From Iodidimonas sp. SYSU 1G8 (GTDB lineage: Bacteria > Pseudomonadota > Alphaproteobacteria > SMXS01): a stretch of DNA of 64,000 nucleotides. Positions 49,026-61,884 of the stretch are shown one piece after another. The stretch covers positions 558,001 through 622,000 of the forward strand of contig NZ_JBBYXJ010000001.1 in the NCBI RefSeq assembly GCF_039655775.1. The letters are read 5' to 3'. The stretch's first letter is position 1; each line of letters begins with the position of its first letter. Under the pieces are notes generated by a model. That model ran no database searches. It saw only the letters and a list, made by a program, of their open reading frames with translations, and had not been told where the DNA came from. A program made the position numbers and the translations under genes.

Positions 49026-50573
49026 ATGACAGAACATGTCCTGATCGTCGATTTCGGGTCGCAGGTGACGCAGCTGATCGCCCGGCGCGTGCGCGAGGTG
49101 GGCGTGTATTGCGAGGTGGTGCCGTTCAACAAGGTCGATGGCATGATCGACGCCTTCGATCCCAAGGGCATCATCCTGTCCGGCGGCCCGGCCAGCGTCA
49201 TCGAGGCCGACACGCCGCGCATTCCCCAGTCGGTGCTGCAGCGGGGCGTGCCGATCATGGGCATCTGCTATGGCGAGCAGGCGCTGTGCGCGCAGCTCGG
49301 CGGGTCGGTGGAGAAGGCCGATCACCGGGAGTTCGGCCGCGCCTTCCTCGACATCAAGGAAAACTGCGCCCTGTTCGACGGCGTCTGGGCGCCGGGCGAG
49401 CGGCACCAGGTGTGGATGAGCCATGGCGACCGGGTGGATTCCATCCCCGAGGGCTTTCGCATCGTCGCCGTCAGCGATGGCGCGCCCTTCGCCGCCATCG
49501 CCGACGAGGCGCGCCGCATCTATGCCGTGCAGTTCCACCCGGAAGTGATCCACACGCCCGATGGCGGCAAGCTGCTGAAGAACTTCGTGCTGAACATCGC
49601 CGGCTGCGTCGCCAGTTGGTCCATGGCCGCGTTCCGCGAGACCAAGATCGCCGAAGTGCGCGCCCAGGTCGGCGACGGCAAGGTGATCTGCGGCCTGTCG
49701 GGCGGCGTGGACAGCTCGGTGCTGGCCGTGCTGCTGCACGAGGCGCTTGGCGACCAGCTGACCTGCGTGTTCGTCGATCACGGCCTGCTGCGCGCCGACG
49801 AGGCCGAACAGGTGGTCAGCCTGTTCCGTGGCCATTACAACATCCCGCTGGTGCATGTGGATGCGGGGCCGCTGTTCCTCGGCAAGCTGGAGGGCGTGTC
49901 CGACCCGGAACAGAAGCGCAAGATCATCGGCGCCACCTTCATCGACGTGTTCGAGGCCGAGGCCAAGAAGGTGGGCGGCGCCCGCTTCCTCGCCCAGGGC
50001 ACGCTCTATCCCGATGTGATCGAAAGCGTCTCCTACAGCGGCGGCCCGAGCGTGACCATCAAGTCGCACCACAATGTCGGCGGCCTGCCGGCGCGCATGA
50101 ACATGGCACTGGTCGAGCCGCTGCGCGAGCTGTTCAAGGACGAGGTGCGGGTGCTGGGCCGCGAACTGGGCCTGCCCGAGACGCTGGTGGACCGCCACCC
50201 GTTCCCCGGCCCGGGCCTCGCCATCCGCATTCCTGGCGCCATCGAGGAAGACAAGATCCGCATCCTGCAGAAGGCCGACAAGATCTATCTGGAGGAAATC
50301 CGCCGCGCCGGCCTCTACGACGCCATCTGGCAGGCCTTCGCCGTGCTGCTGCCGGTGCGCACCGTGGGCGTGATGGGCGACGAGCGGACCTATGACTATG
50401 TGTGCGCGCTGCGCGCGGTGACCTCGGTGGACGGCATGACGGCGGACTACTATCCGTTCGACCACGAGTTCCTGGGCCGGGTGTCGAGCCGCATCATCAA
50501 CGAGGTGCGGGGGATTAACCGGGTCGTCTACGACGTGACGTCGAAGCCGCCGGGGACGATCGAGTGGGAGTGA
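49026..50573 (+). CDS. guaA: GMP synthase (glutamine-hydrolysing)
   Basis: A 515-residue enzyme aminating XMP to GMP. The N-terminal glutamine amidotransferase has [15 protein letters not shown] with the nucleophilic Cys and [14 protein letters not shown] with the His/Glu. The ATP-pyrophosphatase domain has [17 protein letters not shown]. The C-terminus ends [15 protein letters not shown], the usual dimerisation end. The guaA 3' end is a known integration site for genomic islands in other bacteria, and here AT-rich DNA begins right after it. Confidence 0.97.
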
Positions 50574-50599
50574 GGTTTTCAGCTTTAGGTAGATAGCCC

Positions 50600-51481
50600 T
50601 TGAGCAAGAAACAACCTTGGATGGATCATTTTCGGATCCAATCTATTACAGAATTAGATTTTGTAATTGGTGAGGAGTTAGGTATACCCGTAGGAATGCC
50701 GAGAAAAAGCGACCCGGCTTTTCGTAGACGTATCGCAGCTGCGGCAGTTTCCTATCAGTTACTTCTTAAATCGATAGATTACGCGTCAAAAAAATATATT
50801 CCTGAAGATTTGTATGAAGAAGATAAAAATTATTTAGGCGACTTAATAAGTGATTATCTAAAAGAAAGTGCCGAAATACTACAAATCGAGTTAAAAAATT
50901 TTCACGGTGCTGGAGATGAGACATTTGGGGTAATCGGGACGGAGATTACACTTTTTAAGATCCCTGATACCTTTGATGTGGCTAGAATGCTCGCCAATCG
51001 AGGATTGTTGATTGAAGTGCTGCCTATCCTTCGGTTGTGCCTAGAAATGGGCGCATGGGCCAAAACGGCGTTCATCACTACGGACGAGCATAAAGTTGTT
51101 GCGTTGAAGGCCAACAATTGCATCCAAAAACTTAAATTAATATATCCGCCTATTGGGAAAATATATGGCTATCTATCGAACTTTACCCATTGGGGCTATA
51201 TTGTGCATAAGGAATTTTTGTTATTTGAGGATGAAAAGGCTGCCGTGTTACATGCATCTGTTACCTATCGCGCACAATCCCTAGCGCTCTGCCTTCTTGT
51301 GCTAGACGTCCTTCTAGAGGTGATTCGAGACATTTACGGAGAGAATAGTAGTGACCTCATCCGGAAAATCCAGGGCAGCTCCGATGAAGTTGCCTCAAGA
51401 AACACTCGGGCACTCATTGCGAGCATGGTTGAGTTGTGTGAAATTGATGAACTCAGGAGAATACAGCTCTTTTTCAAGTAA
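50600..51481 (+). CDS. AT-rich orphan gene, unknown function
   Basis: A 293-residue protein encoded in DNA strikingly AT-richer than the rest of the window (for example bases 50821-50880 have only 16 G/C) with codons such as TTA, ATA and AAA that its neighbours avoid. This points to recent acquisition. The protein is mostly helical and has LLIEVLPILRLCLEMGAWAKTAF and YGYLSNFTHWGYIVHKEF, loosely like DUF5677/HEPN-type helical proteins, but I am not sure. It starts at TTG 50600, 26 bases after guaA, and there is no integrase. Confidence 0.6.
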   Translation: MSKKQPWMDHFRIQSITELDFVIGEELGIPVGMPRKSDPAFRRRIAAAAVSYQLLLKSIDYASKKYIPEDLYEEDKNYLGDLISDYLKESAEILQIELKNFHGAGDETFGVIGTEITLFKIPDTFDVARMLANRGLLIEVLPILRLCLEMGAWAKTAFITTDEHKVVALKANNCIQKLKLIYPPIGKIYGYLSNFTHWGYIVHKEFLLFEDEKAAVLHASVTYRAQSLALCLLVLDVLLEVIRDIYGENSSDLIRKIQGSSDEVASRNTRALIASMVELCEIDELRRIQLFFK

Positions 51482-51645
51482 GTTTTCCTGATAGCTGGTT
51501 GCCCTCGGCGTCTATAGTGTTGAGCTTAGCGTGCTGGTCGTCGTTCTGGTAGCTTTGTGAACCGATCCAAGCTTAGCCAGGAGCAGAACTGACCGAAGTT
51601 GTGGGGGCGCTGGTGGCGCACGCGGTCGAAGCGTTCCGCTTCCCA
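51482..51645. other. Junction region between AT-rich gene and core DNA
   Basis: 164 bases with base composition grading back to GC-rich. I see no gene, no repeat of the guaA 3' end and no recognisable transposase remnant, although the segment around 51590-51640 could encode a short fragment of something lost. Confidence 0.4.
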
Positions 51646-52548
51646 TCAGCTTCCTTCCTTCGCCATCTCCCGGGCCAGGGCGATGAAGGTCTTGAAGGCG
51701 GCGGAGGGGTGGCGGCGGCCGGGGTAGTAGAGGCTCAGGGGCGCGAGCGGCGGTGTCCAGTCGGTGAGGACGCGCTCCAGACGTCCGGCCGCGATGTCCT
51801 CGCGCACGTCCGATTCCATGAAGAAGCCGATGCCCATGCCGTCCAGCACGGCGATGCGGGCGAGGCTGGCTTCGTCCAGGGTGATGCGGCCGGTGACGTC
51901 GACCTGCACCGGCTGGCCGTCCTTTTCGAACTGCCAGCGATAGAGCGCCCCGTTCGGGAGCCGGATGCGGATGCAGGCATGGCCGAGCAGGTCCGGCGGC
52001 ACGCGCGGCCGCTCGTGCGCCTGGAAGTAGGCGGGCGCGGCGACCACGGCGTTGCGCCGGGGCGGACCCAGGGGCAGGGCGATCATGTCGCTGGGTACCA
52101 GGTCCGCGCTCCGGACGCCGAAATCGAAGCCATCGGCGACGATGTCGACCAGCCGCCCCTCGGTGACCAGATCGACGTGAACCCTCGGGTAGAGCCGCAG
52201 GAAACGCAGCACGAGGGGCGAGATGATCTCGCGCGCGGCGGTGGGGAACGCATTGATGCGCAGCGTGCCGGACGGCGTTTCCTGCTGCGAGCGGGCGGCG
52301 TTCATCGCCTCGTGGATGTCGTGCAGGGCCGGGCCGATCCGGGCGACGAAGTCCCGCCCGGCGTCGGTCAGCGATACGCTGCGGGTGGTGCGGTTGAACA
52401 GGCGCACGCCCAGCTGCTGCTCCAGCTTGCCGATCACATTGCTGAGCGCGGTCGTCGACAGCCCCAGCTCGAGCGCCGCGGCGCGGAAGGAACCGCGCCG
52501 CGCGATGGCGAGCACCGCATCGAGATCGATCAGGCCGTGCCTGGACAT
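51646..52548 (-). CDS. LysR family transcriptional regulator
   Basis: A 300-residue regulator with an N-terminal winged helix-turn-helix ([56 protein letters not shown]) and a C-terminal periplasmic-binding-like effector domain. It is divergent from the NTF2-like/SDR pair at 52675, the standard arrangement for LysR control of adjacent genes; the 126-base gap likely contains its binding site. Confidence 0.93.
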
Positions 52549-52674
52549 TATCCCGCCAATCGCAACACTTTATCCCGATTTGTCCCAATTATCGCCGCAA
52601 AAGTCCAGGGGTAGAGTGTCCGTGCCTCAACCATGCCGAGGCATCCCAGGCACTGGACACAACGGAGACGAATG

Positions 52675-53004
52675 ATGGCGATCACTCTACCGGCGGTAAT
52701 TTCGGACTACTTCGCGGCCGACAAGGGCAGGAACCCGCAATCGGTCGCCGCATGCTTCACCGACGCGGCTGTCGTGACGGACGAGGGGAATACCTACAGC
52801 GGGCGCGAGGCGATCCGGCAGTGGATGGCCGACTCCTCGACGCAATACACCTACACGGTCGAGCCGTTCGCGCTCGCCGAAGAGGGCGAACGGGTGGTCG
52901 TCACCAGCCATCTGGAGGGGAACTTCCCGGGCAGTCCGGTGGATCTGCGGTATTTCTTCGTCCTGGAGGGCGGCCGGATCGCGGCGCTGGAGATCATCCC
53001 GTGA
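52675..53004 (+). CDS. NTF2-like (SnoaL-like) protein
   Basis: A 109-residue small alpha+beta barrel protein, [51 protein letters not shown], a typical SnoaL/NTF2 opening, ending [21 protein letters not shown]. Members bind small hydrophobic substrates as isomerases or are non-catalytic. ATG 52675 (also 52672) has GGAG at 52665-52668. The stop overlaps the SDR start (GTGA). Confidence 0.85.
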
Positions 53005-53780
53005 GGCCGTTCCTCACCCTTGAAGGTAAGCGCGCGCTGGTCACCTCCGGCACGCGCGGCGCGGGCGCCGCGACCGTGGCCCTGTTCCGGGAACTGGGCG
53101 CCCAGGTCCTGACGACGGCGAGGACACGGCCGGACACGATCCCTGCCTCGGACTTCGTGCGCGCGGACCTCACGCGGGCCGAGGACTGCGAGGCGCTGGT
53201 CGCGGCGGTGGCCGAGCGGCTGGGCGGGGTGGACATCATCGTTCACATGCTCGGCGGCTCGTCGGCGCCGGCGGGCGGGTTTGCCGCGCTCGGCGATGAC
53301 GAATGGCGCAGGGAGCTGGACCTCAACCTGATGCCCGCGGTCCGGCTCGACCGCGGGCTTGTGCCGGGAATGGTGGCGCGCGGGCAGGGCGCGGTCATTC
53401 ACGTGACGTCGATCCAGCGGGTGTTGCCGCTGCCGGAGGCGACCACGGCCTATGCCGCGGCGAAAGCGGCGCTGTCCACCTACAGCAAGAGCCTGTCGAA
53501 AGAGGTCTCGCCGCACGGAGTGCGGGTGGTGAGGGTATCGCCCGGCTGGATCGATACCGAGGCATCCAAGGACCTGGCGATGCGGCTGGCGGCGGAGCAC
53601 GGCGTGGATGTGGAGCAGGGCAAGCGGATGATCATGAACTCGCTGGGCGGCATCCCGATCGGCCGGCCCTCGACGCCGGAGGAGGTGGCCAGCCTGATCG
53701 CGTTCCTCGCGTCCGACCGGGCCGGGACCATCACCGGGACCGAGTATGTGATCGATGGCGGTACGGTGCCGACGGTGTGA
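53001..53780 (+). CDS. SDR family oxidoreductase
   Basis: A 259-residue SDR; cofactor motif [11 protein letters not shown] is a variant of the usual TGxxxGIG, with Ala for Ile. NNAG is replaced by HMLGGS, and the active site lies in [23 protein letters not shown] (Ser, Tyr, Lys). It starts at GTG 53001, overlapping the NTF2-like stop, so the two are translationally coupled and under the divergent LysR. Confidence 0.85.
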
Positions 53781-53799
53781 GGGCGTCGAAGAATTTCCG

Positions 53800-54501
53800 C
53801 TAGGAGGCAACGACCCTTCTCAATGACGCCTCGATCTGCCCGCCGCACCACGCCGCGCCGTAATCCTGCCGCGTCTTTTCGGCCAGATCGGCCAGCGGCG
53901 GCAGGGCCGCGACGCGGCGGGTAAGGGCGGCGGTCACCGGGGCGGTATCATCGAGAATCTCGCCGATGCGGGGGAAACGCTCGGTCATCGTCGACCACAG
54001 CGTGGCGGTGACGATGTCGGCGATGCCGGGCGCGGCGCCGCCGAGCAGGTAGCCGCTGTATGGCTTCAGGCCGTGACGGCGGCCGGTGTCTTCCCACAGG
54101 CGCATCCATTTCCGCAGGCGCGGCACGAAGTCGCGCCAGCGCTCGGGCGTCCACATCTGACGGCCGCCGTCCAGGGTCAGCTCATCGATCAGGTCGTTGG
54201 CATCGCATACGCTCTTCAGGGCGAGGGCGCGCATGGCAGGCTCGGGAGGCAGGAGGGCCAGCGTCTCGCCCAGATAGAGGAGGATGGCAGGCATCTGGGC
54301 GATGGCGGCGCCGGTCCCGTTGTCGACAAGCAGGGGCGGTCCCATGAAGGGCACGGGCATGTCGGCCAGTTCGCCCTCCATCAGGGCGGAAATCGCCGCG
54401 TCGCCGGCTTCGTTCCAGCTCTTGCCGGCATGGGCGAGCACGGCGCGCACGAACTGGCCGCGAAACGGCACGGACCAGTAGTAAAGGGTATAGTCGGACA
54501 T
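53800..54501 (-). CDS. Glutathione S-transferase family protein
   Basis: A 233-residue GST with a thioredoxin-like N-terminus (SDYTLYYWSVPFRGQFVRAVLAHAG; the glutathione-site PPLLVDNGTGAAIAQMPAILLYLGE) and a helical C-domain. No obvious catalytic Tyr or Cys can be fixed. The ATG at 54501 is preferred; a longer frame to 54654 adds unlikely residues. The upstream region also contains the toxin-antitoxin operator, reading the other way. Confidence 0.85.
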   Translation of the reverse strand: MSDYTLYYWSVPFRGQFVRAVLAHAGKSWNEAGDAAISALMEGELADMPVPFMGPPLLVDNGTGAAIAQMPAILLYLGETLALLPPEPAMRALALKSVCDANDLIDELTLDGGRQMWTPERWRDFVPRLRKWMRLWEDTGRRHGLKPYSGYLLGGAAPGIADIVTATLWSTMTERFPRIGEILDDTAPVTAALTRRVAALPPLADLAEKTRQDYGAAWCGGQIEASLRRVVAS

Positions 54502-54619
54502 GTCGGCGGCTCCCGGCAAGAGGAGATCGGCGCGTTGGCCATGGGTAGGAGGTGAGGGCCGTCGGTACGCCGTGCAAGGCGGTGCATGCTTTGGGGACCC
54601 AAGTGTCCGCAGCGGTGGC

Positions 54620-54648
54620 TTGAAGCGGCCGTCAATCTGCACTATGTT
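54620..54648 (+). promoter_or_regulatory. Promoter of the PIN toxin-antitoxin operon
   Basis: TTGAAG at 54620-54625 and TATGTT at 54643-54648 with a 17-base spacer. The -10 overlaps the left arm of the inverted repeat at 54645-54673, the usual layout for autorepression. Confidence 0.5.
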
Positions 54649-54673
54649 GAACATTGAGACAATTTGTTCAACA
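54645..54673. promoter_or_regulatory. Inverted repeat operator of the toxin-antitoxin operon
   Basis: TGTTGAACA (54645-54653) and TGTTCAACA (54665-54673) are perfect 9-base reverse complements with an 11-base spacer, 15 bases before the antitoxin ATG. The AGGGGGTG ribosome binding site follows directly. Confidence 0.75.
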
Positions 54674-54687
54674 GGGGGTGAAGCTCA

Positions 54688-54966
54688 ATGTCCAAAAAAC
54701 CTTCCGCGTCCGCGGCTGATCCGTCCCGCGTCGATGCCGTGCTCCGCGCGGCGGAAAGGTCCGGACTGCTGGGCGAGAAGCGGGGGCGTATCGGCGGCCG
54801 TGTCAGCCCGGCGCTGGTGGCTCACGCCAAGCAACGGACGGGCATTGAGGCCGATACCGACCTGATCGAGTTCGCGCTGGCAAACATTGCCCTCGACGAA
54901 GGCTTCGCCGAGGTCTTTCGGAAGGCGCGCGGACAGGTAGACCCGGACCTCGATCTCGGCTTCTGA
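54688..54966 (+). CDS. Antitoxin of a type II toxin-antitoxin pair (probable)
   Basis: A 92-residue hydrophilic protein upstream of a PIN toxin. The N-terminal third is basic and the segment IGGRVSPALVAHAKQRTGIEADTDLIEFALANIAL resembles a ribbon-helix-helix-like DNA-binding and dimer region. The acidic C-terminal tail VDPDLDLGF could wrap the toxin. The start follows AGGGGGTG and an operator-like inverted repeat. Stop and toxin start are one base apart. Confidence 0.75.
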   Translation: MSKKPSASAADPSRVDAVLRAAERSGLLGEKRGRIGGRVSPALVAHAKQRTGIEADTDLIEFALANIALDEGFAEVFRKARGQVDPDLDLGF

Positions 54967-54967
54967 C

Positions 54968-55534
54968 GTGTCCGCCTTCGATTTCGATGCCGCCCGACGA
55001 TGGGCGCGCCTCGATCCGAGCCGAACACTAGCCCGGCGTCCGGATCGGGAACTGCCGTTTATCGATGATGCCGATGCGGGCGGCGCTGCGCTGCTGCTCG
55101 ACACCTGCGTCTATATCGATCAGATGCAGGACCGCACGCCGCCGCGCATAGACGAGGTCATCGCGGTTCGGCAGGTCAATCACTCCACCGTCGCCATCCA
55201 GGAACTGATGCACACGGTCGGTGTCCTGAGTCCCGCTGATCCGCGTAGCGCCGCCGCCATCGCTGAAATAAGGCGGCAGATTCGGGCCATGCCAGCGCAC
55301 CGAGTCTTTACGCCGGATCCGGACGTGCTGGGCCGCGCTGCGCTGCTATCCGGCATGCTGTGCCGCCTCCAGGGCTATACCGCCGATGCGCGGATGCGCG
55401 CACTGATGGACTGCACCTTGTTCCTCCAGGCCCGAAAACTGGGACTTGCCGTGCTGACGGCCAACATCGGCGACTTCGACCTGCTGCTTCAACTCGTGTC
55501 CTCCGGCTCTGTCCTGTTCTACCGAAGAACGTAA
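54968..55534 (+). CDS. PIN domain toxin (probable ribonuclease)
   Basis: A 188-residue PIN-fold protein. Acidic residues suited to metal binding are Asp45 (LLLDTCVYID), Glu79 (VAIQELMH), Asp148 (ALMDCTLF) and Asp169/171 (NIGDFD), in the PIN order. An N-terminal extension of about 40 residues is longer than in most VapC toxins. It starts at GTG 54968. The gene pair and operator support a toxin-antitoxin role. Confidence 0.8.
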   Translation: MSAFDFDAARRWARLDPSRTLARRPDRELPFIDDADAGGAALLLDTCVYIDQMQDRTPPRIDEVIAVRQVNHSTVAIQELMHTVGVLSPADPRSAAAIAEIRRQIRAMPAHRVFTPDPDVLGRAALLSGMLCRLQGYTADARMRALMDCTLFLQARKLGLAVLTANIGDFDLLLQLVSSGSVLFYRRT

Positions 55535-55796
55535 GGCTGGTTCGCAACACGCCTCAGCGGGCCTCTACTCTTTTCGGCAGGGATGATAGACCGATCTCCC
55601 GCAGGAGGTCACAAGCAGCGTCATATGACATTCAACAGCTACCTTTGACGGGCGAACCAGTTCTTGCGACGGTTCATTGTTTCACCGAGCGCAACAATGA
55701 AATGCCGACGACAGGCATTCATCTCATTGGCGCGGGCGCGCACTCTGGCGATGCGGAACGGGATAGGCCTGTTCCGATGCATCGCGGGAGTTGACC
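55535..55796. other. 262-base intergenic region
   Basis: Between the PIN toxin and the GST. I see no gene. GAACCAGTTC-like symmetry near 55654-55663 and a TTGACG at 55645-55650 lack a clear -10. Nothing further is supported. Confidence 0.4.
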
Positions 55797-56408
55797 ATGA
55801 AGCTCTACCACCACCCCTTGTCGGGCCATGCCCATCGCGCGCGCCTGTTCATCTCGCTTCTGGGGCTGCCTCATGACCTGATCGAGGTCGATCTGGCGGC
55901 CGGCGCGCACAGGACGCCCGACTTCCTGGCGCTCAACCCGTTCGGGCAGGTGCCCGTGCTCGATGATGGGGGTATCATCATCCCGGATTCCAACGCGATC
56001 CTGGTCTATCTGGCCAAGAAGGCCGGGCGGACGGAATGGCTGCCGGATGACCCGCAAGGCGCCGCCGCGGTTCAGCGCTGGCTGTCCGTCGCGGCGGGCG
56101 AAGTGGCCTACGGCCCCGCTGCGGCTCGGCTGATCACGGTGTTCGGCGCCGCTTACGATGCGGATGAGGTCATCGCGCGGGCACATTCTTTCCTGGGCAA
56201 GCTGGAGACCCATCTGACGGGGCGACGCTGGCTGGTCGGAGAGGGTCCGACGGTCGCGGACATCGCGATTTACAGCTACGTCGCGCGGGCGCCGGAGGGC
56301 AATGTGGACCTTTCGGCCTACACGGCGGTCAATGAATTCCTGCGCCGGATCGAGGGCTTGCCCGGCTTCGTTCCCTTCGCGCAGACACGCGCCGGCCTTG
56401 CCGCCTGA
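55797..56408 (+). CDS. Glutathione S-transferase
   Basis: A 203-residue [36 protein letters not shown] and the glutathione-site [27 protein letters not shown], then a helical C-domain with the N-capping [21 protein letters not shown]. Starts ATG 55797 (a TTG at 55791 is less likely). Thirty-one bases upstream of the flavin-binding protein gene, so likely co-transcribed. Confidence 0.92.
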
Positions 56409-56439
56409 CCGATTCCTCGCGCTCAACAGGACATTCGAG

Positions 56440-57435
56440 ATGACCAGAACATTGCCAAGTCTGCCGGCGTGGCACGAGGGCGAGACCTTCCTTCAGGAAA
56501 AGCTGGGCGTGGCGGAGCGGATGGCGGCCATCGGCGACCGCGTCATTCGCGATGTCATGCCCGATCAGCACCGCGCCTTTTACGCCCAGCTTCCGTTCAT
56601 CGTGCTGGGCAGCGTCGATGCCGGCGGAGATGCGTGGGCCACGATCCTCACCGGCCGGCCAGGCTTCCTGTCGTCGCCAGACCCGGCAACGCTCGACATC
56701 GGCGTACAGGCGGACCCGAGCGATCCGGCCAGCGAAGGCCTGCGCGAGGGCGATTCCATCGGCCTGCTCGGCATCGAGATGCATACGCGGCGCCGGAACC
56801 GCATGAACGGTATCCTCGCGCAGACCAGGAAGGGTATGCGGGTGATGGTGGACCAGAGTTTCGGCAACTGTCCGCGCTATATCCAGCTTCGCGATTTCGA
56901 GATCGCGAGGGACCCGGGAACGACGTCCGAGGGTATCGTGGAGACGCTGAGTCACCTCGATGCGCCGGCGCGCGGCCTGATCGAGGCAGCGGACACGTTT
57001 TTCGTCGCGACCTATGCCGACCGGGGCGGACGCCGGCAGGTCGATGTCTCCCATCGCGGCGGCAAGCCCGGCTTCGTCCGGATCGGGGCGGATGGCACGC
57101 TCACCGTACCGGACTTCAGCGGCAATCTGTTCTTCTCGACACTCGGCAACATGGTGCTCAACGGGAAGGCAGGGCTCGTCTTCATCGACTATGAGCGCGG
57201 GGATGTGCTGCAGATGACCGGCGACGCGGAGGTGATCCTGGAGTCGCCGCAGATCGACGCATTCGAGGGCGCGGAAAGGCTGTGGACGTTCGAGCCACGC
57301 CGCATCGTCCGCCGCCAGGACGCGCTGGCGCTTCGGTGGTCGTTCCGCGAGAATGGCTGGTCGCCCAGCTCGCTCGAGACGGGCGACTGGGCGCAAGCCG
57401 CAATTACGTTGCGGAACGCCGCGCCGGGGAACTGA
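56440..57435 (+). CDS. FMN-binding split-barrel (pyridoxamine-phosphate oxidase-like) protein
   Basis: A 331-residue protein with a split-barrel fold: PFIVLGSVDAGGDAWATILTGRPGFLSSPD, later IGLLGIEMHTRRRNRMNGILAQ and a second half with VSHRGGKPGFVRIGADGTLTVPDFSGNLFFSTLGNMVLNGKAGLVFIDY. It resembles the pyridoxamine 5'-phosphate oxidase family, whose distant members bind FMN, haem or F420. ATG 56440 follows a short gap from GST. The neighbouring LysR suggests shared regulation. Confidence 0.82.
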   Translation: MTRTLPSLPAWHEGETFLQEKLGVAERMAAIGDRVIRDVMPDQHRAFYAQLPFIVLGSVDAGGDAWATILTGRPGFLSSPDPATLDIGVQADPSDPASEGLREGDSIGLLGIEMHTRRRNRMNGILAQTRKGMRVMVDQSFGNCPRYIQLRDFEIARDPGTTSEGIVETLSHLDAPARGLIEAADTFFVATYADRGGRRQVDVSHRGGKPGFVRIGADGTLTVPDFSGNLFFSTLGNMVLNGKAGLVFIDYERGDVLQMTGDAEVILESPQIDAFEGAERLWTFEPRRIVRRQDALALRWSFRENGWSPSSLETGDWAQAAITLRNAAPGN

Positions 57436-57466
57436 CGGGCACGGTCCGAGGAGGGGTGGAGCGGGC

Positions 57467-58360
57467 ATGGATCGCTGGCAGGCCATGCGGATTTTCGTGA
57501 AGGTGGCGGAGACGGAGAGTTTTGCCGAAGCCGCCCGCCAGCTTCACATGAGCGCGCCTGCGGTTACCCGCGCGGTGGCGGCCCTCGAGGATCTGATCGG
57601 CGCGCGTCTGTTCGTGCGCACCACGCGCTCGGTAAAGCTCACGGAGCCGGGGAGACGCTACCTGGACGACTGTCGGCGTATTCTGGCCGACATTATCGAG
57701 GCCGAAGCCGCGGCGGCCGGCTCCTATGCCACGCCGTCCGGAACGCTGTCCGTCACGGCCTCCGTCATGTTCGGGCAGATGTACGTCCTGCCGATCATGC
57801 ACGAGTTCCTCGCAACCTATCCCTCTGTCTCCGGCAGGCTGCTGTTCGTCGATCGGCCGGTAAACCTGGTCGAGGAGGGCATCGATGTGGCGATCCGCAT
57901 CGGCCACCTGGCTGATTCCGGGTTCGCCGCCATCAAGGTGGGCTCGGTCCGCCGTGTGGTCTGCGGCGCCCCAGCCTATTTCGAGACCCATGGCATCCCG
58001 CTCGTGCCCGCCGACCTCAGGCATCATCGGATCGTCGCCTCGACCAGCGCCTGGGCGTCACCGGCGTGGAGATTCGCACGCGATCAGCGCGTGACGGTCG
58101 ACAGCTGGCTGCAATGCAACACCAACGATGCCGCGATCGCGACGGCCATGGCCGGCTCGGGATTGACGCGCGTGCTTCACTATCAGATCGGTCCCGCCTT
58201 GCTCGACGGCAGGCTGCGGATCGTCCTCGCCGAGCACGAGGACGCGCCGCTGCCGATCCATGTCCTGCATCCCGAGGGCCGTCAGGCGCCGGCGAAGGTG
58301 CGGGCCTTCGCCGATCTCGCGGTGGCGCGCCTGCGGGAGAACCGGCTGTTCAACGCCTGA
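57467..58360 (+). CDS. LysR family transcriptional regulator
   Basis: A 297-residue regulator: helix-turn-helix FVKVAETESFAEAARQLHMSAPAVTRAVAALEDLIGARLFVRTTRSVKLTEPG, then an effector-binding domain. ATG 57467 follows GGAGGGG. It is on the same strand as the GST and split-barrel genes, 31 bases downstream, an arrangement that suggests autoregulated control of the cluster. Confidence 0.93.
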   Translation: MDRWQAMRIFVKVAETESFAEAARQLHMSAPAVTRAVAALEDLIGARLFVRTTRSVKLTEPGRRYLDDCRRILADIIEAEAAAAGSYATPSGTLSVTASVMFGQMYVLPIMHEFLATYPSVSGRLLFVDRPVNLVEEGIDVAIRIGHLADSGFAAIKVGSVRRVVCGAPAYFETHGIPLVPADLRHHRIVASTSAWASPAWRFARDQRVTVDSWLQCNTNDAAIATAMAGSGLTRVLHYQIGPALLDGRLRIVLAEHEDAPLPIHVLHPEGRQAPAKVRAFADLAVARLRENRLFNA

Positions 58361-58374
58361 CTCAGGCCGCCTGC

Positions 58375-59616
58375 TCACGCATCGACGGGCCGGCACAACT
58401 CCAGGTACATGGCCGCAGGTTCATGGCCCAGGAAGGTCTTGCCCAGCTGTTCGTAGTGCCGGTAGGAGATCAGCGCGTGGTTCGCCGCCTGCTGGGCGTC
58501 GCGCAGCTGACGCTCGAGCGGGCTGTCCATGCGGCATCCGGTAGTGCCGGCCGTGTTGTTGATGACGCCGACCACTTCCCGGCAGGTCTGCGCGGCATGA
58601 GCGCAGGCGAGCAGGGCGGGCCAGAAATATTCCCAGTCGGGCTGCAGCCGGCCGCCCTTCGCGGGCAGCGGGCCAAGATGCTCCTCCAGCCGGTCCTGCG
58701 TCTCCATGACGAAGGCGCGCACCGCCATCAGCTTGGCCTGCGCCTCGCCGACGCGGTACTGGACGACAGCCTGGTCCTTGAGCGTCGTGCTCAAGCCCCA
58801 CGGCACCTTGCCCATGGCGAGATCGATGAAATTGTCGATGGCGCCCCGGCACACGCCGAGCGCGACGGCCGCCTTGTTGTAGATGGCGTGGGTCGGATTC
58901 CGGTAGGTCGGGTTGTCCCAGATCTCGCTGGGCGCCAGCGAGCGGCCCGGCAACAGGCGATCGGGCGGCACGTAGCAGTTTTCCATGCGCACGTCGTGGC
59001 TGCCCGAGCCGCGCATGCCGGAGGTGTCCCAGGTGTCGATGATCTCGAACTCGCCTTTGGGCACCATGAACGAGGCTTCGGCGGTCTTACCCGTGTCCTC
59101 GTCGGTGCACATGGAGCCCATGAGGAAGTTCCAGGTGGCATTCTGCGAGCCGCTGGCGAAGCTGCCCTGATAGTTCAGGCGCCAGCCATCGCCCTCGCGC
59201 CGGGCGCGCCGGCCGGGATTGGGGCCGTTGGCCGGGCCGTGGCCGGAGCAGACCAGCGCATACCAGTCGTCGAAGATGCGCTCGGCGAAGGCGGGCGGCA
59301 TCTGGCGGATGACCAGCGCGTTGATCTCGGACGAGATCTGGGTGCACCAACCGACAGAGCCGTCGATGGCCGAGACCGCCTCAATGATCTCGATCTGCTG
59401 GCGCGCCCGCAGGTCCTCGCCGCCCAGCTCGTCCGGCAGCACGTAGCGATACAGACCGATCTCGGCCATTTCCTTCGATGCCCAGGCGGGCAGATGGCGC
59501 AGGCGCTGCGCCTCGTCGCCAGCCGCCGCGAGCTTGTCCCTGATGCCGGCGATCCGCTGCAGCATGGGTGTTTTGGAAATCTCTCTCTGGCGGTCCAGAA
59601 TCTCGGTGTTCATCAT
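58375..59616 (-). CDS. Acyl-CoA dehydrogenase-like flavoprotein (group D monooxygenase type)
   Basis: A 413-residue flavin enzyme with the acyl-CoA dehydrogenase fold. Stretches such as LPDELGGEDLRARQQIEIIEAVSAIDGSVGWC and SGMRGSGSHDVRMENCYVPPDRLL are typical of HpaB/HsaA-like oxygenase components. No separate flavin reductase or acyl-CoA ligase lies beside it. Two adjacent ATG codons start it (59616). It converges on the LysR with 14 bases between. Confidence 0.82.
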   Translation of the reverse strand: MMNTEILDRQREISKTPMLQRIAGIRDKLAAAGDEAQRLRHLPAWASKEMAEIGLYRYVLPDELGGEDLRARQQIEIIEAVSAIDGSVGWCTQISSEINALVIRQMPPAFAERIFDDWYALVCSGHGPANGPNPGRRARREGDGWRLNYQGSFASGSQNATWNFLMGSMCTDEDTGKTAEASFMVPKGEFEIIDTWDTSGMRGSGSHDVRMENCYVPPDRLLPGRSLAPSEIWDNPTYRNPTHAIYNKAAVALGVCRGAIDNFIDLAMGKVPWGLSTTLKDQAVVQYRVGEAQAKLMAVRAFVMETQDRLEEHLGPLPAKGGRLQPDWEYFWPALLACAHAAQTCREVVGVINNTAGTTGCRMDSPLERQLRDAQQAANHALISYRHYEQLGKTFLGHEPAAMYLELCRPVDA

Positions 59617-59882
59617 CTCGGTGTCCCTCCCGTTTCAGCATGGCTCCGGCCAAACGCCGCGTGCACGGCGATGACCGGTTCGCGGACGCGCCGGCTCCCC
59701 AGCGTGCGCATCCGCCAGCATGCTAACCGCAAGGCGAGCCTGACACTCTTCCTAAATTCGCCGTCTGATCCGTGGCGGGCCGGCGCCAGTACCATGTCGC
59801 GTGGCCGACGGGTCGCCATGACGACAGAGGAGCCTTGGGCCGTGATCCAACCCGATTGCCGCAGGAACATCGGCGTGCGCTG
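59617..59882. other. Intergenic region before the photolyase gene
   Basis: 266 bases. A short frame of 29 codons (59794-59883, ATG to TGA) overlaps the photolyase start as TGATG and could be a translational coupler, but coding support is absent. No promoter was convincing. Confidence 0.35.
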
Positions 59883-61412
59883 ATGGCGGGCACACGCACT
59901 CTTATCCTGGTCCTTGGCGACCAGTTGACGCCGGCGATCAGCAGTCTCGCGGCAGGCGATCCGGCCCGGGATCGGATCCTGATGGCGGAGCTGCATGACG
60001 AGACCACCTATGTGCGCCATCACAAGAAGAAGATCGCCTTCCTGTTCTCGGCCATGCGCCATTTCGCCGACGAGCTGCGGGGCCTCGGCTGGCGCGTGGA
60101 TTATGTGAGGCTGGACTCGCCCCAGCATCGCGGCGGCTTCACGGCGCAGGTGGCGCACGCGGCCGGCGCGCTGCGGCCCGAGCGGATCGCCGTCACGCAG
60201 CCGGGCGAGTGGCGCGTGGCCCGGATGATGAAGGGCTGGCACGAACAGCTGGGCGTGCCGGTCGACATCCTGCCCGATGACCGCTTCCTGTGTTCGCCCG
60301 CCGCCTTCGCGGACTGGGCGGCGGGCCGCAAGCAGCTGCGCATGGAGTATTTCTACCGTGACATGCGCCGCCGCACGGGATTGCTGATGGACGGCGACGA
60401 ACCGGCAGGCGGACGCTGGAACTTCGATGCCGAAAACCGCAAGCCCGCCGACACCGACCTGTTCATGCCGCGCCCGCTGGCCGTTGCGCCGGACGCGATC
60501 ACGCGGGAAGTGCTGGCGCTGGTCGAGGGGCGGTTCGGCAACCATTTCGGCGACCTGATGCCCTTCCGCTTCGCGGTCCGCCGCGACGATGCCGAAGCGG
60601 CCTTCTCGGCGTTCGTCGACACGGCCCTGGCGCGGTTCGGCGATTACCAGGATGCGATGCTGACGGGCGAGCCGTTCCTCTATCACGCCGTCATCGCGCA
60701 ATACCTCAATTGCGGGCTGCTCGATCCGCTCCGGGTCTGCCGCGCGGTCGAGGACGCGTACCGGACCGGCGCCGTGCCGCTGAACGCCGCCGAGGGATTC
60801 ATCCGCCAGATCATCGGCTGGCGCGAATATGTGCGCGGTATCTACTGGCTGCGCATGCCGGGGTACGAGCACAGCAACGCCCTCGGTCATACCCGGCCGC
60901 TGCCGGATTTCTACTGGACCGCCGAGACGGAGATGGCCTGTGTCCGGGCGGCCGTGACGCAGACCCGCGAGCACGCCTACGCCCACCACATCCAGCGGCT
61001 GATGATCACCGGCAATTTCGCCCTGTTGGCCGGGGTCGATCCGCACGCGCTGCACGAATGGTATCTGAGCGTGTATGCGGATGCCTATGAATGGGTCGAG
61101 CTGCCGAACACGGCCGGCATGAGCCAGTTCGCCGATGGGGGACTGCTGGCGTCGAAACCCTATGCGGCCAGCGGCGCCTATATCAACCGCATGTCGGACT
61201 ACTGCCGGTCCTGCCGCTACGACGTGACGTGGCGGACCGGTCCGGATGCCTGTCCGTTCAACGCGCTCTACTGGAATTTCATCGCGCGGCATCGGGAGCT
61301 GCTGAGCCGGAACACGCGCATGACGCCGATGCTGCGCACCTATGACAGGTTTTCCGGCGACGAAAGGCAGCGCATCGCGGACAGCGCCGCCGCCTTTCTG
61401 GCCACGCTATGA
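59883..61412 (+). CDS. FeS-BCP-type cryptochrome/photolyase
   Basis: A 509-residue deoxyribodipyrimidine photolyase-related protein. The N-terminal Rossmann domain begins TLILVLGDQLTPAISSL. The FAD-binding helical domain includes GWREYVRGIYWLRMPGYEHSN and HIQRLMITGNFALL. Cysteines in DYCRSCRYDVTWRTGPDACPFN plus an earlier Cys fit the 4Fe-4S cluster of this class (PhrB-type, 6-4 photoproduct repair). ATG 59883 overlaps a short upstream frame. It overlaps the DUF2256 gene by four bases, its usual partner. Confidence 0.92.
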   Translation: MAGTRTLILVLGDQLTPAISSLAAGDPARDRILMAELHDETTYVRHHKKKIAFLFSAMRHFADELRGLGWRVDYVRLDSPQHRGGFTAQVAHAAGALRPERIAVTQPGEWRVARMMKGWHEQLGVPVDILPDDRFLCSPAAFADWAAGRKQLRMEYFYRDMRRRTGLLMDGDEPAGGRWNFDAENRKPADTDLFMPRPLAVAPDAITREVLALVEGRFGNHFGDLMPFRFAVRRDDAEAAFSAFVDTALARFGDYQDAMLTGEPFLYHAVIAQYLNCGLLDPLRVCRAVEDAYRTGAVPLNAAEGFIRQIIGWREYVRGIYWLRMPGYEHSNALGHTRPLPDFYWTAETEMACVRAAVTQTREHAYAHHIQRLMITGNFALLAGVDPHALHEWYLSVYADAYEWVELPNTAGMSQFADGGLLASKPYAASGAYINRMSDYCRSCRYDVTWRTGPDACPFNALYWNFIARHRELLSRNTRMTPMLRTYDRFSGDERQRIADSAAAFLATL

Positions 61413-61579
61413 CGAAGAAGCGCTACACCAAATCCACGCTGCCGGAGAAGCCATGCGCGGCCTGCGGTCGGCCGTTCGCCTGGCGCAAGAAGTGGGCGCG
61501 GGACTGGGACGCGGTGAAGACTTGTTCCGAACGCTGCAAGGGAGAGCTGAGACGGCGGCGGAAGACGACGGCCGTCTAG
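61409..61579 (+). CDS. DUF2256 small zinc-ribbon-like protein
   Basis: A 56-residue basic protein that reads directly off the photolyase end (ATGA overlap). It has CAACGRPF, the aromatic WRKKWARDWDAV and CSERCK, giving four cysteines for one zinc. DUF2256 is repeatedly found next to FeS-BCP photolyases, so a role in that enzyme's function or maturation is plausible but untested. Confidence 0.85.
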   Translation: MTKKRYTKSTLPEKPCAACGRPFAWRKKWARDWDAVKTCSERCKGELRRRRKTTAV

Positions 61580-61641
61580 CACTGGCATGCCCGTGCGCAC
61601 CCGCTATAGTGCCCGCGAAGCACCAGAGGAGAGCGTTTTCC

Positions 61642-61884
61642 ATGAGCCGCCGCGACAGCCTTGCCGCCGTTGAACGCCGCATCCGCCGCCTCGTGGTTCG
61701 GCGCGGCTGGCACATGATGAAGGCAGAGAAACCGGACAAGCGCGTGCTGGCCCATGGCGGCTATATGCTGCGGGACCCGGAAACCTTCGCCATCGTGTTC
61801 GGCGACAAGGACTATCCGTACTGCGCCGACCTGGACGATATCGAGGCGTTCCTCGCCAGTCTGGACGAGACGCAGGGCCAATAA
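61642..61884 (+). CDS. Small conserved hypothetical protein
   Basis: An 80-residue protein: an Arg-rich N-terminus (RRDSLAAVERRIRRLVVRRGWHMMK), GYMLRDPETFAIVFGDKDYPYCADLDDIEAFLASLDE and an acidic end. It looks like a compact alpha/beta fold of unknown function. GAGGAGAG at 61626-61633 supports the ATG at 61642. It lies between the DUF2256 gene and ogt. Confidence 0.65.
   Translation: MSRRDSLAAVERRIRRLVVRRGWHMMKAEKPDKRVLAHGGYMLRDPETFAIVFGDKDYPYCADLDDIEAFLASLDETQGQ

Follow-up and report, generated by a model that had tools for sequence, protein, structure and literature searches.

What is the AT-rich gene directly downstream of guaA in Iodidimonas sp. SYSU 1G8, how could it have come to this position, and might it function in phage defence? 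In the window (i.e., the whole stretch of 64,000 nucleotides analyzed), the native guaA gene encoding GMP synthase (49026–50573, + strand; start chosen by eye at MTEHV within its reading frame) is followed, after a gap of 26 bp (50574–50599), by an open reading frame of 882 bp on the same strand (50600–51481). Its product of 293 amino acids is predicted to be helical and is referred to as orphan in the following. The region 50574–51645, singled out by a preceding sequence-only reading, consists of this gene together with the 26-bp gap and a 164-bp intergenic stretch (51482–51645). The orphan frame opens with a TTG start codon at 50600, and AGGTAG at 50587–50592, located 7 nt ahead of it, is a possible ribosome-binding site.

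The GC content drops from about 0.66 to 0.38–0.43 immediately past guaA and is again 0.66 in the bin 51550–51849. The orphan gene has a GC content of 41.6 % (GC3 of 0.413), compared to 0.658 for the window. Scanning of all 882-bp stretches of the window (mean GC 0.657, sd 0.033) yielded a minimum of 0.415, starting 5 bp from the orphan frame, and values below 0.50 were confined to stretches starting at 50247–50880. In addition, the codon-usage score of the orphan gene is 0.221 versus 0.473–0.847 for 29 other genes of the window, the latter also forming the reference set. The GC bins, the 882-bp scan and the codon score confirm the sharp shift in composition and codon use that the sequence-only reading had placed at the guaA end, with a return to normal by about 51.5 kb, and a foreign origin of the orphan gene is well supported by both properties. 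Since the longest open frame over 1000 shuffles of 50574–51500 amounted to 180 codons, the orphan frame is very probably coding.

Judging by its start 26 bp past guaA on the same strand and by the lack of a clear promoter, read-through transcription from guaA is the most likely mode of expression of the orphan gene. The scan of 50300–51800 retrieved no terminator-like and one promoter-like site, counts that are near or below chance and thus uninformative, as shuffles give 1.4 of each; a mobility gene was not found beside the orphan gene. Within the following intergenic stretch (51482–51645), the composition returns to normal, and no unusual RNA fold is formed (equal or better folding in 188 of 200 shuffles). 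It is followed by genes of normal GC content (51646–53780) for a LysR regulator (51646–52548, − strand, convergent with the orphan gene), a SnoaL-like protein (+ strand) and a short-chain dehydrogenase (+ strand); the genes straight after the orphan gene in the window look metabolic or regulatory.

Comparison of the guaA 3′ flank with that of relatives revealed a conserved gene end next to variable DNA. The last 974 bp of guaA share 88–92 % identity with five relatives of the genus, while for the sixth (G005, 78 % complete) the best match spans just 29 bp. In all five genus relatives with the flank read, DNA homology breaks off at most 2 bases from the guaA stop codon and, where regained, restarts at 53.8 kb or later. 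A DNA search with 50574–53799 against nine relatives retrieved short matches and a 555-bp match of 65 % identity in the dehydrogenase part only. As DNA comparison disclosed no LysR, SnoaL-like and dehydrogenase genes at this site in the relatives, the segment specific to the species may extend to 53.8 kb. All five genus relatives hold other genes at the site of the orphan gene. The comparison proposed by the sequence-only reading bears out that the content of the flank varies, but it disclosed no empty site.

In four of these five relatives (G001, G003, G004 and G006), the gene next to guaA is the same NOV_C (DUF3883) gene, oriented convergently with guaA (L013:3626–4480, L016:10528–11367, L014:14384–15331, and after guaA in L017 for G001). 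The NOV_C domain was recognized by Pfam with E-values of about 4–5e-22 in the two relatives tested; the gene of G001 was assigned by virtue of its open frame and of 70–74 % DNA identity with those of the other three relatives. With 0.58–0.61 in three relatives, the GC content of the NOV_C gene lies below the 0.66 of the window. The PADLOC model PDC-S36 is matched over its full length by all three NOV_C genes tested (E-values of 5.5e-124 to 6.3e-125), and the NOV_C part of these proteins also matches the PD-T4-1 and TmtA models, more weakly. PDC denotes a phage defence candidate according to PMC11514479; a defence function of PDC-S36 is accordingly a prediction for a family that itself has candidate status. 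The flank of the fifth genus relative (G002) contains glyoxalase-like and TetR-like frames, and among further family members an amine-oxidase-like frame (G007) and a PanB-like frame (G008, G009) are found after guaA (all named by eye). A 22-bp stretch at 51489–51510 shows a weak resemblance to the NOV_C 3′ end of G006 (18 bp for G004), which was equalled by 26 and 50 of 2000 shuffles, respectively, and has no counterpart there for G001 and G003; suggestive only, it could be the scar of a replaced NOV_C gene or a chance resemblance.

Two further features were observed in the more distant part of the window. A block of about 225–231 bp corresponding to 61640–61870 is 81–90 % identical in four of the five relatives, with most of the surroundings differing, and may represent a short frame starting with MSRRDSL (read by eye in the relatives rather than in the window). 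At 54688–55534, genes for a small protein and a VapC-like protein (NCBIfam VapC match below cut-off) form a pair that is also present in G002, about 1.8 kb after guaA.

At E ≤ 1, searches of Pfam, PADLOC, NCBIfam and PHROGs did not assign the orphan protein itself to any family, its two halves matched no Pfam family at E ≤ 10, and no match at E ≤ 10 was obtained among PDB sequences. Neither plasmids nor phages yielded a tblastn match to the orphan protein, and plasmids contained no match to 51440–51700. Pattern scans of genome and viral contigs, run with the complete protein as well as its core, an approach detecting close relatives only, did not confirm any relative. The orphan gene was found neither in the six genus relatives (its own genome alone matching among the seven genus genomes) nor in the nine family relatives (10 family genomes including its own, identical to those of the order-level search); two of these relatives are only 78 % and 84 % complete. 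Consequently, the same gene with normal composition in relatives, which the sequence-only reading had named as an argument against a foreign islet, was seen in none of the nine. Among 385 genomes of the class (its own included), one other match at E ≤ 0.01 was obtained (L018, E 0.003, two internal stops), and among 398 genomes of the phylum (likewise) four others with E-values of 0.035–0.09. The opened loci displayed only short frames (L018), a 572-aa membrane-protein-like frame (L021), or radical-SAM-like and Clp-like frames (L022; the latter two loci named by eye), and all five weak matches (L018–L022) are treated as chance based on these three. The larger genome samples gave chance-level matches only, and the protein is devoid of known close relatives.

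A distant relationship to DUF5677 (PF18928), suggested in the sequence-only reading, was pursued with profiles. The Pfam model itself does not match the orphan protein at E ≤ 1, i.e., its cut-off of 27.1 bits is not reached, and it retrieves nothing from the genome at E ≤ 0.1. However, a profile built from DUF5677 members of other genomes, initially comprising 6 and then 30 proteins (30 of the 31 loci over cut-off; L074 was omitted, its frame not being located), scored the orphan protein above controls. The 6-member version yielded a score of 29.4, reached by none of 60 shuffles (maximum 21.3), and the 30-member version one of 28.0, reached by none of 100 shuffles (maximum 19.8) and none of the first 120 frames of the window (maximum 19.5). 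Among 150 other frames drawn as decoys from 210, two outscored the orphan protein, with the next one at 22.0. Since one of them is the DUF5677 locus left outside the profile (L074) and the other a DUF6988 protein with a sub-threshold DUF5677 match (L047), both act as positive controls.

R145-L-C-L-E149 and Y189-x3-S193-x3-H197, two short blocks following each other in the expected order, make up the match, corresponding to the conserved R-x3-E and Y-x3-S-x3/4-H of DUF5677. The positions of these blocks are the most conserved ones of the family (R 30/30, E 28/30, H 30/30, Y 27/30 and S 21/30). The aligned block differs between the two profile versions (residues 101–167 with 6 members, 176–201 with 30 members), HMMER with filters off reports both blocks with 5–7 bits in all, and hhalign assigns a probability of 14–15 % (E-value of 0.002, valid for one comparison). 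The bare motif is weak evidence, occurring in 9 of the 150 decoys and in 131 of 10,000 shuffles, and the spacing from R to H is 52 residues in the orphan protein versus 94–142 in the 30 DUF5677 proteins. In alignment A1, containing 18 of the 30 members, R145 is placed correctly, while mafft --add misplaced the R…E block; a profile made from A1 had two matches to PDB sequences, regarded as chance (E-values of 0.22 and 1.2). The orphan protein thus weakly resembles DUF5677, above controls. The earlier suggestion holds with respect to profile score and motifs, but not with respect to the Pfam model and the R-to-H spacing. There is moderate support for a DUF5677-like core, and we consider a DUF5677-like fold somewhat more probable than its absence.

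Comparison of a DUF6988 (PF22491) profile (14 proteins: 13 of 27 plasmid records plus L047) with that of DUF5677 yielded a probability of 95.7 and an E-value of 9e-9; the two Pfam families, both of unknown function, are related. The R-to-H segment of DUF6988 is shorter (67–79 residues in 11 of the 14 proteins, the search pattern having taken another R in the remaining three). The DUF6988 profile alone gave a non-significant score of 16.0 with the orphan protein (reached by 14 of 100 shuffles), whereas the merged DUF5677 and DUF6988 profile scored 21.3, reached by none of 100 shuffles. DUF6988 matches the PADLOC model PDC-S52, and it is one of five unknown domains for which a phage-challenge study in E. 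coli newly indicated a part in defence (PMC13092281). At four of the 13 plasmid loci (L096, L093, L094 and L084), a gene for a HEPN/Toprim-associated protein, a UvrD helicase, an AAA ATPase or VapC adjoins or lies near that of DUF6988.

The explanation preferred here, with chances falling slightly short of even, is that of a foreign cargo consisting of one gene, which may encode an anti-phage effector and sits where PDC-S36 is usually located. The foreign gene would have taken the place next to guaA that in this genus mostly belongs to the NOV_C (PDC-S36) gene, presumably arriving by recombination replacement in the guaA flank and not by means of an integrase. Transcribed by read-through from guaA, it would encode a protein that is probably built of helices throughout and contains a compact version of the DUF5677 core, with R145/E149 and S193/H197 making up a polar site. 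This protein may act alone as an anti-phage effector of the abortive-infection type, similar to the DUF6988 sister family and to the gene replaced. The hypothetical defence role is conceivable, though not quite probable, because (i) the usual occupant of the site matches the candidate defence family PDC-S36, (ii) the orphan protein resembles DUF5677, whose relative DUF6988 is newly defence-implicated (PMC13092281), and (iii) guaA and pgrR border a defence island of Stenotrophomonas maltophilia that was described as the most diverse in systems (PMC11680222). The possible defence function named in the sequence-only reading thereby gains indirect backing from occupant, island and DUF5677 resemblance, but no PADLOC match at E ≤ 1 was obtained for the orphan protein itself. 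The metabolic or regulatory look of the proteins encoded straight after it, the metabolic-looking genes in this flank of relatives and the mere candidate status of PDC-S36 also speak against the preferred explanation.

Alternatively, the locus could be what is left of a larger integrative island targeted to guaA, with a single cargo gene retained after loss of the integrase and of the right attachment site. As claimed in the sequence-only reading, the guaA 3′ end does serve as an integration site in other bacteria, e.g., for GIsul2, whose guaA-specific integrase uses the core GAGTGGGA according to PMC9376610. This core is intact in the 3′ end of guaA (50562–50569, one exact + strand copy in the neighbourhood), and the AT-rich content begins directly past the gene. 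However, since GAGTGGGA is also present in guaA of eight relatives (all those with the guaA end displayed), none of which has the orphan gene, the core is not island-specific. A second core is lacking on the + strand of 50570–61501 with one mismatch allowed (the − strand contains one-mismatch sites at 57996 and 58631), nor does the 21-bp guaA end recur when three mismatches are tolerated. A repeat of 21 nt close to the guaA end (50533–50553) recurs with 81 % identity at 53401–53421, among the matches listed in a repeat scan of 50300–55000 (listing 20 of 26 families of direct repeats and 25 of 28 pairs of inverted ones). This might be taken for a trace of integration, but it lies within the dehydrogenase gene, stops short of the core and probably reflects coding sequence shared by chance. 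Furthermore, the three tyrosine-recombinase matches of the genome (PF00589, a search for this recombinase type only) are all more than 600 kb away from the site, and no integrase was noticed by eye among the predicted proteins after guaA, here or in the relatives. Given that a nearby tyrosine integrase, second core, second guaA end and empty site are all lacking, the islet or islet remnant formed by integration, as envisaged beforehand, is not supported; of an integration boundary, the right side (second core/attR) could not be found. The integrase-type islet was therefore set aside as main explanation and is kept as an unlikely rival.

Judged as rather unlikely as well, if a little less so, is a foreign gene with a different role, be it metabolic, regulatory or selfish, or a roleless short-lived ORFan, brought by chance into a permissive intergenic site. 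Such an origin is compatible with the failure of all searches to retrieve a convincing homologue and with the metabolic-looking glyoxalase-, amine-oxidase- and PanB-like frames at the flank of relatives, but the gene most often seen at this site in the genus has its match in a candidate defence family, and the DUF5677-like signal exceeds that of the controls. A HEPN-type ribonuclease toxin, also brought up by the sequence-only reading, appears very improbable. The predicted helical nature of the orphan protein would agree with it, and PMC3710099 describes poor conservation outside the motifs between HEPN families, some of which are devoid of the motif. However, R-x4-6-H, the active-site motif of HEPN ribonucleases (PMC3710099), occurs nowhere in the orphan protein, and no Pfam family of any kind is matched at E ≤ 1, so that the canonical form is not supported. 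Structure models of the orphan protein are helical but poor (mean pLDDT of 41 alone and 57 with alignment A1; block means of 73–82 for residues 121–150 in the A1-based model), and Foldseek searches with these low-confidence models, uninformative as such, retrieved no match at E ≤ 0.001.

Should the preferred reading of a defence-like single gene in place of PDC-S36 be true, the locus would provide a small case of cargo exchange next to a core gene in which no mobility gene is visible. In addition, a divergent compact form missed by current family models would be added to the DUF5677/DUF6988 group, which is poorly understood and contains one family with a recently reported link to phage protection. 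A more far-reaching version is doubtful, namely that a compact family of single-gene defence systems similar to DUF5677/DUF6988 is seen here for the first time in the orphan protein and, at the same time, the guaA 3′ flank an integrase-independent exchange site, anchored on conserved guaA, where PDC-S36 and unrelated genes swap. Without a role in defence, the gene would simply add to the foreign ORFans found at variable intergenic sites. As a kind, i.e., cargo at a variable flank, the locus is ordinary; somewhat unusual is the lone orphan gene where one candidate defence gene mostly sits.

With respect to known systems, the orphan protein shares with DUF5677 the R-x3-E in one helix and the Y-x3-S-x3/4-H in a later one, as well as a score above shuffles and unrelated frames, but differs by escaping the Pfam model and by an R-to-H segment that is shorter by some 40 residues or more. 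The DUF6988/PDC-S52 proteins, kin to DUF5677, are likewise shorter in this segment and newly implicated in defence, whereas their direct profile comparison with the orphan protein is not significant. The NOV_C (DUF3883) PDC-S36 gene of the four genus relatives agrees with the orphan gene in being a single gene at the same position after guaA, but is encoded on the opposite strand and has no detected sequence relation to it, the orphan protein matching neither PADLOC nor Pfam models. GIsul2 and the guaA-flanked defence island of S. maltophilia have in common with the present locus the variable DNA directly after guaA; in contrast to these islands, the variable DNA is here represented by one gene, with no integrase or second att core found.
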